From: Steroidobacteraceae bacterium
GTDB lineage: Bacteria; Pseudomonadota; Gammaproteobacteria; Steroidobacterales; Steroidobacteraceae
DNA length: 64,000 nucleotides
Reading direction: 5' to 3'
Assembly: GCA_025458865.1 (NCBI GenBank)
Contig: JALORP010000008.1
Coordinates: 1 to 64,000, forward strand
The notes beneath the pieces were generated by a model. That model was given only the letters and a program-made list of their open reading frames with translations, had not been told where the DNA came from and made no database searches. How positions within the stretch are numbered: position 1 is the stretch's first letter; each line of letters starts with the position of its first letter. The translations under genes were made by a program, and so were the position numbers. Below, in pieces: positions 54,671-61,994 of this stretch.

Positions 54671-54762
54671 TGGCGGAGAGGGTGGGATTCGAACCCACGT
54701 GGGGCGTAATGCCCCCAACCGATTTCGAGTCGGTGCCGTTGTGACCGCTTCGGTACCTCTCC
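54671..54762 (-). tRNA. tRNA-Ser (anticodon CGA)
   Basis: Ninety-two bases on the minus strand including an encoded CCA. The acceptor GGAGAGG pairs with CCTCTCC. The anticodon stem ACCGA/TCGGT encloses loop CTCGAAA, giving anticodon CGA. A long variable arm (GGGGGC...GCCCC) marks a class II tRNA, and the T arm is GTGGGTTCGAATCCCAC. It reads UCG codons. Confidence 0.96.
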
Positions 54763-57986: not shown

Positions 57987-58015
57987 TTGATATGCACGCG
58001 CGCCGGGCGTACCAT
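57987..58015 (+). promoter_or_regulatory. Sigma-70-type promoter for the exporter leader
   Basis: TTGATA (57987-57992) and TACCAT (58010-58015) are separated by exactly 17 bases, matching five and four of six consensus positions. Transcription should begin near 58022, about 10 bases before the leader peptide's ribosome site. Confidence 0.6.
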
Positions 58016-58043
58016 GCCGGCGCATTGGACTCAGGAGGACGCA

Positions 58044-58100
58044 ATGCGACGCGTCAAGACTCACTTTCCGGCACTTGCAGGCCTTTTCATCGGCCGGTGA
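58044..58100 (+). CDS. Leader peptide of the ABC exporter operon (18 residues)
   Basis: AGGAGG at 58033-58038 is placed five bases before ATG 58044. The frame reads MRRVKTHFPALAGLFIGR and ends at TGA 58098-58100. For so GC-rich a genome it is unusually rich in A/T-ending codons (CGA, ACT, TTT, GCA, CTT, GCA, CTT), which could slow ribosomes. It lies between a promoter and a rho-independent terminator ahead of the exporter genes. A regulatory, not structural, role is inferred from this layout. I know no named homologue. Confidence 0.65.
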   Translation: MRRVKTHFPALAGLFIGR

Positions 58101-58138
58101 GCCCGTCCTGATTCCGCGCTAGGCGATCGAAATCCGGA

Positions 58139-58163
58139 CCCGCTCATCACCGAGCGGGTTTTT
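58139..58163 (+). terminator. Attenuator-type rho-independent terminator
   Basis: CCCGCTC (58139-58145), loop ATCACC, GAGCGGG (58152-58158), then five T (58159-58163). It stands 38 bases after the leader stop and 107 bases before the exporter start, so it would cut off the operon unless prevented. CGGTGA at the leader's end (58095-58100) is complementary to TCACCG (58147-58152) inside this hairpin, giving a possible competing antiterminator. Confidence 0.8.
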
Positions 58164-58197
58164 CGCTTCAGCAACCCAAAGCTTCGTAGCGACCCGC

Positions 58198-58216
58198 CCG
58201 GTCCCGGCCCGACCGG
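58198..58216 (+). promoter_or_regulatory. Second hairpin in the exporter leader
   Basis: CCGGTC (58198-58203) and GACCGG (58211-58216) form a 6-bp stem with a 7-base loop between the attenuator and the exporter start. There is no T run. It may stabilise the mRNA or be incidental. Confidence 0.35.
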
Positions 58217-58270
58217 ATCCGATTCGTACTCGACGTCACCACGGGGTGCCGTCCGGCGGGAAGAACGACC

Positions 58271-60109
58271 ATGAACGACACACAGCACGGTTCGCTGTGG
58301 CAGATCACCCAGGGGCATCGCGTCCGCTACGCGTATGCGATCCTGGCCATGGGCCTCACGAACCTGTTCATGTTCGGCGCGCCGCTCGCCGGGCGCTACG
58401 CCATCGACGTGGCGGTCGAGCGGGACCTCGGCTACGCGGCGACCCCGCTGCTGTGGCTGGCGGGCCTGTTTGCCGGCGCGGACACCTTCGTGGCCTATCT
58501 CTGGCTGTCCGCGGCGGCCGCGGTGGCGCTAACCCTGCTGGGCGGCGTCTGCCAGTACGCGCGCGGCCGATTGGCGGCCAGGGCCTCGGAAGCCATCGCG
58601 CGGCGCCTGCGCGAGCAGATCTACCGGCGCCTGCACCTCTTGCAGGCCGGCTACTACGACACCGCGGACACCGGCGACCTGGTGCAGCGCGCGAGCTCCG
58701 ATGTCGAGACCGTGCGGGTCTTCCTCGCCAACGACGTCGTCGAGATCGGCCGCGCGCTGATGCTGGTACTGTGCGTCACGCCGGTCCTGTTCTGGATGGA
58801 CGCGCGCCTCGCCTGGCTGTCGCTGTGCCTCATGCCGATCCTGGCCTGCGGCGCCTACCTGTTCTTCTCCGGCGTGAAGAAGGTCTTCCAGCAGACCGAC
58901 GAAGCCGAGGCGGCGATGACCGCGACGCTGCAGGAGAACCTCACCGGCATCCGGGTGGTGCGCGCCTTCGCGCGGCAGGCCTACGAGATCGATAAGTTTG
59001 CGCAGCGCAACGCCGCCTTCCGCGACCAGAACCAGCGGCTGATCCAGCTGATGAGCCTGTACTGGAGCGCCAGCGACCTGTTCGCCATGTCGCAGATCGG
59101 CCTCGTGCTGTTCGGCGGCGCGTACTTCATCATGGACGGCACGCTGACGGTGGGCACCCTGTTTGCGTTCATGACCTATGTCGCGATGGTGATATGGCCG
59201 ATCCGCCAGCTCGGCCGCGTGCTCACCGACACCGGCAAGGCCGTTGTCAGCCTCGGGCGTATCAAGGAAGTGCTCGAAGCGACGGAGGAGTCCGAGGAAC
59301 GCGCGCCCGAAGAGGACCGCGCCCGCGGCGAAATACAGATCGAGGGCCTGACCTTCGCCTACAAGGCGGACCGCCCGGTGCTGCGCGACGTGAGCATCCA
59401 CGTGCGGCCGGGCGAGACGCTGGCCATCGTCGGGCCGCCCGGCTCGGGCAAGTCCACGCTCATCCGGGTGCTGCTGCGCCTGTATCCGTACCAGCAGGGC
59501 TCGGTGCGCCTCGACGGGCGCGAGATCGCCGAGACCAATCGTCAGTGGCTGCGCCGCCAGGTCGGCGTGGTACTGCAGGACCCGTTCCTGTACTCGCGCT
59601 CCGTGCGCGCCAACCTCGCGGTCGGGCGCAGCCATGCGCCGGAGTCGGAGCTGATCGAGGCTTGCCAGGATGCGGCTATCCACGACAGCATCCTGCGCTT
59701 CTCCAACGGCTTCGACGCCATGGTCGGCGAGCGCGGCGTCACGCTCTCCGGCGGCCAGCGCCAGCGGCTGGCGCTGGCCCGGGCGCTGCTGAAGGATCCG
59801 CCGGTGCTGGTGCTCGACGATTCGCTCTCGGCCGTGGACACCGGCACCGAGGCGCGCGTGCTCGAGGCACTGCGACGCCGCAAGGGCCGGCAGACCACGC
59901 TGATCATCGCGCACCGCCTGTCGTCGGTGATGCACGCCGACCGGATCATGGTGCTCGACGAGGGCCGGGTGGTGCAGCTCGGCGACCACGCCACCCTGAG
60001 CCGGCAGCCGGGCCCGTACCAGCGGCTGTGCGACATCCAGGGCGCGCTCGACGCATCGATCCGCCGGGACGTCGCGGCCTCGACCAGCGCGTTGCCCGCA
60101 GGAGCATGA
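58271..60109 (+). CDS. ABC exporter subunit 1 (half-transporter with degenerate Walker B)
   Basis: Type IV (MsbA/Sav1866-like) half-transporter of 612 residues. Six membrane helices lie in residues 20-320 and the ATPase domain in 355-590. Walker A GPPGSGKST (388-396), Q436, signature LSGGQ (492-496) and the H-loop H548 are present. The catalytic Glu after Walker B is Asp (VLVLDDS, D517). The partner gene starts one base later, so they likely form a heterodimer. In BmrCD/TM287-288-type exporters one subunit also carries this Asp. Expression is probably controlled by the leader and terminator upstream. The substrate is unknown, perhaps a drug or peptide. Confidence 0.9.
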   Translation: MNDTQHGSLWQITQGHRVRYAYAILAMGLTNLFMFGAPLAGRYAIDVAVERDLGYAATPLLWLAGLFAGADTFVAYLWLSAAAAVALTLLGGVCQYARGRLAARASEAIARRLREQIYRRLHLLQAGYYDTADTGDLVQRASSDVETVRVFLANDVVEIGRALMLVLCVTPVLFWMDARLAWLSLCLMPILACGAYLFFSGVKKVFQQTDEAEAAMTATLQENLTGIRVVRAFARQAYEIDKFAQRNAAFRDQNQRLIQLMSLYWSASDLFAMSQIGLVLFGGAYFIMDGTLTVGTLFAFMTYVAMVIWPIRQLGRVLTDTGKAVVSLGRIKEVLEATEESEERAPEEDRARGEIQIEGLTFAYKADRPVLRDVSIHVRPGETLAIVGPPGSGKSTLIRVLLRLYPYQQGSVRLDGREIAETNRQWLRRQVGVVLQDPFLYSRSVRANLAVGRSHAPESELIEACQDAAIHDSILRFSNGFDAMVGERGVTLSGGQRQRLALARALLKDPPVLVLDDSLSAVDTGTEARVLEALRRRKGRQTTLIIAHRLSSVMHADRIMVLDEGRVVQLGDHATLSRQPGPYQRLCDIQGALDASIRRDVAASTSALPAGA

Positions 60110-60110
60110 C

Positions 60111-61994
60111 ATGGCTGCCTATGACGAGAGCCAGGACGACGGCTTCAACGACGACCAGCTGGCCTCGCGCTTCAACCTGCGGCTGTGGAAGAAACTGTTC
60201 AGCTACGCCAAGGTCTACCGGCGCGAGCTGTGGATCCTGGCCATCAGCGCCGTTTTCACCGCGGCCACGGAGGTCTGCTACCCGCTGATCACGCGCGAAG
60301 TCGTCGACCGCGTTGCGGCCGACGGCCTGTCGACGGATCTCTGGCCGCTGATGCTGGCCTATGCCGCGTGCACGCTGGTGCTGACGCTGTCGGTCGGCAC
60401 CTTCGTCCGGATGGGCGGCAAGATCCGGACCTCGGTCGCGCATGACATCCGTCGCGATGGCTTCGAGAGCCTGCAGCGGCTGTCGTTCTCGTTCTACGAC
60501 TACCGGCCGGTCGGCTGGTTGATGGCGCGCATGACCTCGGACTGCGAGCGGCTGTCGAACATCCTGGCCTGGGGATTCCTCGACCTGGTGTGGGGCAGCA
60601 CCATGATGCTCGGGATCGCGGTGGCGATGCTGGTGATGAGCCCGAAGCTGGCGCTCGCCGTGCTCGCCATCATCCCGGTGCTGGCCTGGGTCTCCGCGGG
60701 CTTCCAGCGACGCATCCTCAAGAGCGCGCGGCAGGTGCGCGCCACGAACTCGCGGATCACGGCCTCCTACAACGAAGCCATCATGGGCGTGCTGACCAGC
60801 AAGGCCTTCGTGCGCGAGGAGCCCAACCAGGCCGACTTCCAGAAGCTGACCCAGAGCATGTACGGCGCCTCGGTGCGAAACCTGACCCAGGCCGCGATCT
60901 ACGTGCCGATCGTGATCACGCTGGCGAGCCTGGCCACTGGCCTCGCGCTCGCCATGGGCGGCCTGGACCTGCTCGGCGGGGTGATCACCGCCGGAACGCT
61001 GGTGGCGTTCATGGCCTACACGCGGCACTTCTTCGACCCGGTGGAGCAGCTCGGCCACTGGTTCGCGGAGATGCAGATGGCGCAGGCCTCGGCCGAACGC
61101 ATCCTGAGCCTGATCGAGGCCGAACCAGACATCCAGGACTCCGCCGCGGTGCGCGATGCGCTGGCGCTGGCCCGCCAGCGGCGCGCCGCCGGTGACCTGG
61201 CCGAGGACGGCGGCGATGCGGCGATCGAGGAGATCGAGTTGCGCCAGGTGGGCTTCGCCTACGACGCGGCGCGGCCGGTGCTGCAGGACATCAACCTGCG
61301 CGTGCGGCGCGGCGAGACCATCGCCATCGTCGGCCCGACCGGCGGCGGCAAGAGCACGCTGGTGAACGTGATCTGCCGCTTCTACGAGCCGACCCAGGGG
61401 CAGGTGCTGGTCGACGGCGTGGACTACCGCGAGCGCAGCCTGCATTGGCTGCAGTCGAACCTGGGCATGGTGCTGCAGAACGCGCACGTGTTCAGCGGCT
61501 CGATCCTCGAGAACATCCGCTACGGGCGGCTCTCCGCCAGCGACGAAGAGGTCGTGGCGGCCGCGCGGACGGCCGGCGCGCACGACTTCATCCTGCAGCT
61601 GGAGAAGGGCTACCAGACCCAGGTCGGCGAAGGCGGCGGGCGGCTGTCCGCCGGCCAGAAGCAGCTGATCAGCTTCGCCCGCGCGATCCTCGCGGATCCG
61701 CAGATCCTGGTCATGGACGAGGCCACCTCATCGGTGGACACCGAGACCGAGCAGCGCATCCAGGCGGCGATGACGCACGTGCTCAGGGGGCGCATCGCCT
61801 TCGTGATCGCGCACCGGCTGTCCACCATCCGCAATGCCACGCGCATCGTGGTGGTGGAGGATGGCCGTATCACCGAGGCCGGCACGCACGACGCGCTGAT
61901 GGCGGCGCGCGGCCACTACTACGACCTGTATCGCCAGCAGAGCCTGCAGGAGTCGAGCCGCGACCTGGTGTCCACGCCGCCGCAGCCGGCGTGA
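60111..61994 (+). CDS. ABC exporter subunit 2 (half-transporter with canonical Walker B)
   Basis: Second half-transporter, 627 residues, with six membrane helices (about 38-325) and an ATPase domain (about 375-610). Walker A GPTGGGKST (408-416) and Walker B with catalytic E537 (ILVMDEATSSVD) are standard, but the signature is LSAGQ (512-516) instead of LSGGQ. In a heterodimer this altered signature would face the subunit 1 nucleotide site that has the Asp substitution. A linker of about 30 extra residues before the ATPase domain (AVRDALALARQRRAAGDLAEDGG) is unusual. One base separates it from subunit 1. Confidence 0.9.
   Translation: MAAYDESQDDGFNDDQLASRFNLRLWKKLFSYAKVYRRELWILAISAVFTAATEVCYPLITREVVDRVAADGLSTDLWPLMLAYAACTLVLTLSVGTFVRMGGKIRTSVAHDIRRDGFESLQRLSFSFYDYRPVGWLMARMTSDCERLSNILAWGFLDLVWGSTMMLGIAVAMLVMSPKLALAVLAIIPVLAWVSAGFQRRILKSARQVRATNSRITASYNEAIMGVLTSKAFVREEPNQADFQKLTQSMYGASVRNLTQAAIYVPIVITLASLATGLALAMGGLDLLGGVITAGTLVAFMAYTRHFFDPVEQLGHWFAEMQMAQASAERILSLIEAEPDIQDSAAVRDALALARQRRAAGDLAEDGGDAAIEEIELRQVGFAYDAARPVLQDINLRVRRGETIAIVGPTGGGKSTLVNVICRFYEPTQGQVLVDGVDYRERSLHWLQSNLGMVLQNAHVFSGSILENIRYGRLSASDEEVVAAARTAGAHDFILQLEKGYQTQVGEGGGRLSAGQKQLISFARAILADPQILVMDEATSSVDTETEQRIQAAMTHVLRGRIAFVIAHRLSTIRNATRIVVVEDGRITEAGTHDALMAARGHYYDLYRQQSLQESSRDLVSTPPQPA

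Follow-up and report, generated by a model that had tools for sequence, protein, structure and literature searches.

A conserved uORF leader before a gammaproteobacterial heterodimeric ABC exporter as a probable ribosome-mediated transcription attenuator

The window analyzed here is a stretch of 64,000 nucleotides from a Steroidobacteraceae bacterium (contig JALORP010000008.1, positions 1 to 64,000). It contains two consecutive genes for ABC half-exporters, preceded by a short upstream open reading frame (uORF) and a series of segments able to form alternative hairpins (Table 1). Of the half-transporters with solved structures, those matching the two subunits best include Sav1866, TM287/288, TmrAB, and BmrCD. 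Comparison with the BmrC/BmrD (YheI/YheH) chains gave E values of 1e-82 to 1e-93 for both subunits, with P-glycoproteins, Sav1866, TM287/288, and TmrAB matching them as well or better, and both subunits fell under the cut-off of the NCBIfam exporter equivalogs shown, including SmdAB and MsbA. Heterodimeric ABC exporters have one degenerate ATP site. Here, the Walker B motif reads LDDS in subunit 1 and MDEA in subunit 2, so that one ATP site is probably degenerate and subunit 1 is likely the degenerate half. Elsewhere in the window, an Rfam search places a tRNA gene at 54674–54762 on the minus strand, between an FHA-like ORF and an MltF-like gene.

Table 1. Features of the leader and exporter genes in the window.
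Feature	Position	Strand	Details
Sigma-70-type promoter	57987–58015	+	TTGATA-17-TACCAT; TTGATA 57987–57992, 17-nt spacer, TACCAT 58010–58015; 9/12 consensus matches
uORF Shine–Dalgarno (SD) segment	58031–58038	+	TCAGGAGG; AGGAGG at 58033–58038
Leader uORF	58044–58100	+	18 codons, MRRVKTHFPALAGLFIGR; ATG 58044, stop TGA 58098–58100
R1, antiterminator 5′ strand	58096–58108	+	GGTGAGC-CC-GTCC; overlaps uORF stop
Anti-SD segment	58106–58111	+	TCCTGA
R2, antiterminator 3′ strand	58136–58148	+	GGAC-CC-GCTCATC; includes terminator 5′ arm
Intrinsic-terminator-like hairpin R2:R3 and U-tract	58138–58163	+	Perfect 8 bp: ACCCGCTC (58138–58145)-ATCACC-GAGCGGGT (58152–58159), then TTTT 58160–58163
R4, R2 repeat	58190–58201	+	CGACCCGCCCGG; can pair with R3 once R1:R2 has formed
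ABC exporter subunit 1, TMD–NBD	58271–60109	+	ATG 58271; DD at Walker B/catalytic glutamate position
ABC exporter subunit 2, TMD–NBD	60111–61994	+	DE (canonical)

The order of elements in the original prediction, namely a promoter with a 17-bp spacer, AGGAGG, an 18-residue leader ORF, a hairpin, and then the exporter, is present as described. The promoter was found by a generic scan, with 0.2 such sites expected in 1.3 kb. In orthologous loci, promoter-like pairs again occur 25–60 nt upstream of the uORF, with a mean score of 8.0 versus 5.7 in shuffled sequences and a spacer of 17 in 16 of 28 cases. The uORF of the window has the strongest SD-led start in the leader. It is indeed rich in rare codons, as had been noticed: seven of its 18 codons have a relative use of ≤0.07 (CGA, ACT, TTT, GCA twice, and CTT twice), and its mean ln w is −1.13 versus −0.29 for the genes of the window, a level as low being reached by none of 2817 gene stretches. 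However, the adjacent non-coding DNA has the same codon use (mean ln w −1.25), so the rare codons show merely absent codon optimization, and we dropped them as a sign of a tuned leader. The folding energy of the leader (58018–58170) is −62.4 kcal/mol (z = −2.65).

The hairpin R2:R3 with its T-run corresponds to the rho-independent terminator that had been proposed, and its pairing is conserved in orthologues; a generic terminator scan of the window leader region did not list it, however, indicating that the hairpin alone is a modest terminator. R2 can alternatively pair with R1 (GGTGAGC..GTCC with GGAC..GCTCATC), forming an antiterminator. This longer pairing replaces the antiterminator suggested originally, between CGGTGA (58095–58100) and TCACCG (58147–58152), which exists in the window but has an exact complement in 2 of 21 loci. 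TCAGGA within the uORF SD segment can in turn pair with the anti-SD (post-R1) segment, giving an anti-antiterminator (SD:post-R1). The part of the window between terminator and exporter (58190–58270) carries R4, in which the terminator arm is repeated (GACCCGC), and then an extra hairpin, CCGGTC..GACCGG; a similar repeat and hairpin are seen in L088, L092, and L134. A search of the leader against Rfam 15 returned nothing at the gathering threshold, the sole match at E ≤ 1 being a chance-level snoRNA on the opposite strand.

For comparison we used 21 curated leaders that precede orthologues of the exporter; most of these come from one other family of gammaproteobacteria. The same leader is kept down to about 50% identity of the exporter protein. 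The uORF, chosen at each locus as the strongest SD-led start with the frame disregarded, recurs before the orthologues and encodes peptides of 12–42 residues. The 21 peptides could not be aligned and have no shared sequence, and a search of them for a shared residue run, including a run of a regulatory amino acid, found none. The evidence for coding is thus given by the SD, the frame, and the stop position instead of synonymous substitution. The SD-led uORF overlaps R1 in all 21 loci, and its stop falls exactly at the TGA of R1 in 17 of them (2.7 expected; binomial P = 3e-12); in the other four, it lies 11–20 nt past this TGA. A conserved block, NNN-TGAGC-nn-GTCC-TGA, contains the 3′ end of the uORF and precedes GGACCCGCTCA...GAGCGGGTC. 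Sequence conservation is strong in R1 (consensus TGAGCnnGTCC) and R2, whereas the segment between them varies freely in length and sequence and contains no large conserved aptamer. In L098, one of these four loci, the TGA of the block has become TGG and the ORF continues, yet R1 still pairs with R2 via G-U, which indicates that the conserved thing is the RNA pairing, not the end of the peptide. The uORF peptide itself appears to be unimportant, with the uORF acting as a ruler and a translation sensor; the idea that the peptide is a substrate of the exporter was rejected for want of peptide conservation.

The helices themselves were tested in two ways. In an alignment of 17 loci, R1:R2 is paired at 85% versus 79.2% in shuffles (0 of 500 as high), and in five of its pairs both bases have changed; for R2:R3, the paired fraction is 93.4%, also with covariation. 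All three strands have changed jointly in L007, where GTCC:GGAC became TTCC:GGAA and the terminator became GGAAACCGC:GCGGTTTCC. We then compared native with swapped partners in 19 loci after removal of near-identical ones, which only partly corrects for the inflation of covariation tests by shared ancestry. Native partners were favored for R1:R2 (z = −5.0, 0/5000), R2:R3 (z = −3.7, 6/5000), and SD:post-R1 (z = −3.8, 0/5000; −13.6 kcal/mol native versus −11.1 kcal/mol swapped), and more weakly for R3 with the R4 zone (z = −2.6, 34/5000; mean z versus shuffles −2.25). The controls R1:R3, SD:R3, and SD:R2 were flat and not significant in the same 19 loci. Strict terminator-like hairpins occur in 11 of 23 motif-bearing leaders (0.4 expected) versus none of 39 exporters lacking the motif; the U-tract is weak in L088, L092, L108, and L134. 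The sequences thus establish the parts of the leader, their conservation, and their alternative pairings: leader, terminator, and competing helix are kept with compensatory changes across the 21 loci. Judged on these grounds, this is a real, conserved leader, probably an attenuator, that is absent from Rfam.

Several individual leaders deserve a separate description. The letters NTG-AGC-NNN-TCC-TGA, at 58097–58111 in the window and at the equivalent places elsewhere, can be read as an ORF of four codons, M-S-x-S/C, with a start overlapping the stop of the uORF (NTGA) and a stop of its own (+11) that is kept, by eye, in 17 of 23 loci as TGA, TAA (L088), or TAG (L092). This ORF may serve for reinitiation or may simply result from the constraints of pairing; since R1:R2 and the anti-SD pairing use these very letters, a tiny second ORF or a +1 frameshift is not needed to account for them. 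L088 and L179, on different contigs of the same genome (G975), have near-identical leaders and exporter starts and differ in R2 and the loop (GACCCGCTCAGCTGGTGAGC versus GACCCGATCACCAGCTGAGC); they are probably strain variants and potentially informative natural mutants. L008, L009, L013, and L100, upstream of exporters 64–67% identical, have a different uORF that begins with MM[IS]I.. (e.g., MMIINPQGRVRAPGNRYASADDASLDSTV) and has a strong SD, joined in some of the loci by a good promoter, but lack R1, R2, and R3; this is possibly a replaced regulatory leader. L090 and L091, which precede sister exporters of that of L007, have long uORFs ending in TTGAGCTGA, and L091 has another strong hairpin, CGAGGAAC..GGTTCCTCG, where the standard terminator would be.

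The effect of a ribosome on folding was calculated with a crude model in which 31 nt around the ribosome are blocked. For the full leader of the window, the predicted probabilities of the terminator and antiterminator are 0.94 and 0.00 without a ribosome, 0.22 and 0.71 when a ribosome occupies the start codon, and again 0.94 and 0.00 when it occupies the stop. In equilibrium folding of full leaders, the effect is graded: the antiterminator is ahead in 11 of 21 loci with the mask at the start and in none with the mask at the stop, and a mask on the last sense codon gives an antiterminator probability of 0.00 in all 21. Before R3 is synthesized, the mean probability of R1:R2 is 0.89 with the ribosome at the start, 0.84 in the middle, 0.71 with none, and 0.00 at the stop. 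Some loci never switch in this crude equilibrium model; in L088 and L134 the terminator is favored whatever the ribosome position, so a switch there would need to be kinetic. Overall, the position of the ribosome is predicted to select between the terminator and antiterminator folds, in agreement with the earlier suggestion that the state of translation could switch termination.

Taken together, these data indicate that the element is probably a ribosome-mediated transcription attenuator, built on a chain of four helices: the anti-antiterminator SD:post-R1, the antiterminator R1:R2, the terminator R2:R3, and the extra helix R3:R4. We infer that the uORF is translated, that transcription terminates at R2:R3, and that the inducing signal is hampered translation, for example by translation inhibitors. 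The transcript would begin just past 58015. A free-running ribosome would reach the stop codon and cover R1, leaving R2 for R3, with termination before the exporter. A ribosome held at the uORF start or within its early codons would disrupt SD:post-R1 and free R1, which would take R2 upon its synthesis, block the terminator, and allow transcription of the exporter; R3 may then pair with R4. With no ribosome, SD:post-R1 would hold part of R1, and termination would be favored. Hampered ribosomes would thus probably turn the pump on. Lack of a conserved leader or terminator in orthologous loci, which the original prediction itself named as refuting, was looked for, and both proved to be conserved. 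The interpretation given in the original prediction is supported with corrections: the antiterminator is R1:R2, two helices are added, and the rare codons are uninformative.

To estimate the specificity of the element, a covariance model of R1–R3 was built from 17 loci. In 207 genomes of the family that supplied most of the leaders, matches of at least about 38 bits lie solely at the start of this exporter, one strong match being on a contig that ends there. The genome of the window has one strong match, and 98 of its relatives gave nothing above 30 bits besides the window itself. A scan of 372 further genomes of the order gave one new match near this level, L208 (37.9 bits), at a gene end without an exporter; the rest are weak. 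Weaker matches away from exporters (L167, L208, L209, and L221) were rejected, as they resemble ordinary gene-end terminators or chance.

Among the same 98 relatives, exporter subunit 1 at 1e-150 is found in the window and one 50% relative only, and class-wide and own-relatives exporter searches likewise gave the window itself or one 50% relative only. Orthologues at 59–78% identity are found in other gammaproteobacterial genomes, mostly of the one family, where 76 of 201 genomes have an orthologue at 1e-200, many of them without the leader element. In two genomes of the same genus as the window, the S9 peptidase gene that follows the exporter in the window is present (80–83% identical) and the exporter is not adjacent; in the one whose genes were listed, other genes lie beside the peptidase. 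The exporter and its leader were therefore probably acquired horizontally by the genome of the window, although rearrangement with loss in relatives may account for the same picture. Of 60 exporters placed in a tree, 23 bear the motif, and these occur on either side of the deepest ingroup split, with 12 state changes; the simplest reading, which falls short of proof, is an early origin and repeated loss of the motif.

Other explanations of the leader should be weighed against attenuation by the ribosome. The same folds might be decided by a ligand or an RNA-binding protein, with the short ORF incidental. The strong conservation of R1 and R2, but not of the peptide, would suit such a sensor, and analysis of premature terminators has predicted antiterminator/terminator leaders before other ABC transporter operons, for instance potABCD and that of a Lactobacillus multidrug exporter; these have been assigned no sensor, and the main text of that study does not describe the present element (PMC2965389). 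However, an SD-led ORF overlapping R1 in every locus and stopping exactly at it in 17 of 21, the freely variable R1–R2 segment with no large conserved aptamer, and the lack of an Rfam match make this unlikely. Equally unlikely, in our estimate, is control of translation or Rho-dependent termination, in which uORF translation would alter folding near the exporter ribosome-binding site and the R2:R3 hairpin would not be decisive. There is a precedent in the toiL uORF of topAI in Escherichia coli, which senses several classes of ribosome-targeting antibiotics via ribosome position (PMC12121999) and differs in its target gene and in acting on translation and Rho-dependent termination. The R3:R4 pairing extending toward the exporter start and the weak U-tracts of some loci are consistent with it, but 26–129 nt (in the window, about 70 nt) separate the end of R4 from the start codon, which places R4 off the ribosome-binding site, and terminator-like hairpins are far more frequent than expected.

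A still less probable arrangement is that of two unrelated parts, a gene for a small peptide (e.g., an exported peptide or small protein) with its own terminator, followed by the exporter. The promoter, SD, ORF, and terminator do make a complete unit; nevertheless, the short peptides without shared sequence largely refute this arrangement, the covarying R1:R2 competes with the terminator, and the covariance-model searches gave no convincing copies away from the exporter. The idea that a GC-rich intergenic region simply contains an ORF and a hairpin by chance, with which the non-conserved six-base pairing and the codon use like that of non-coding DNA would fit, is refuted by conservation in 21 loci and contradicted by all comparative tests.

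The preferred reading, a ribosome-mediated attenuator, has parallels in known systems. In the trp-type leader attenuators of proteobacteria, a chain of mutually exclusive helices is decided by the position of the ribosome. The present element shares this chain and this logic, whereas its uORF, unlike the trp, his, and leu leaders, has no run of a regulatory amino acid, its first strand is the SD of the uORF itself, and an extra strand, R4, follows the terminator. The bmrB/bmrCD attenuator is induced by antibiotics targeting the 50S subunit. In Bacillus subtilis, the bmrB leader of bmrCD is a 53-codon ORF with a terminator inside the coding region, an antiterminator, and a predicted anti-antiterminator, and the exporter is on when ribosomes are slowed (PMC4191407). 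In both systems, a leader ORF precedes a heterodimeric multidrug ABC exporter and the helices are of the same types, with the response to slowed ribosomes being inferred in our case. The bmrB-like logic originally proposed fits the predicted working of the element, but the architecture is different: here, the ORF has 12–42 codons, the terminator lies 3′ of its stop, and the stop codon is within the antiterminator strand. The phylum is also different, and no sequence relation is seen. Thus, bmrB-bmrCD is the closest working parallel, and the window element appears to be a separate RNA family. The PA5471.1 leader of armZ (mexXY control) in Pseudomonas aeruginosa, for which attenuation in response to ribosome-targeting antibiotics has been proposed (PMC12057347), is likewise a short leader peptide in a gammaproteobacterium; what it controls is an RND pump anti-repressor rather than an ABC exporter, and it is likened here by description alone. 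PA5471.1 (PMC12057347) and toiL (PMC12121999) indicate that gammaproteobacterial uORFs can sense ribosome-targeting drugs. In the open-access papers searched, we found no description of the leader.

On balance, we lean toward a broader view, in which this is a new family of ribosome-sensing attenuators, absent from Rfam, that is ancestral in a family of gammaproteobacterial heterodimeric ABC exporters and moving between lineages with the exporter. Its five-strand chain would use the SD of the uORF as the anti-antiterminator strand and hold the stop codon in the antiterminator strand, so that an arbitrary peptide reports general translation stress. Our analysis supplies a searchable RNA model and precise mutations, together with the prediction that these pumps give protection from ribosome-slowing compounds. 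In Bacillus, an ABC multidrug exporter controlled by ribosome-mediated attenuation has already been described; a dedicated, covarying attenuator in mostly uncultured gammaproteobacteria suggests that the same solution arose independently in Gram-negative bacteria.
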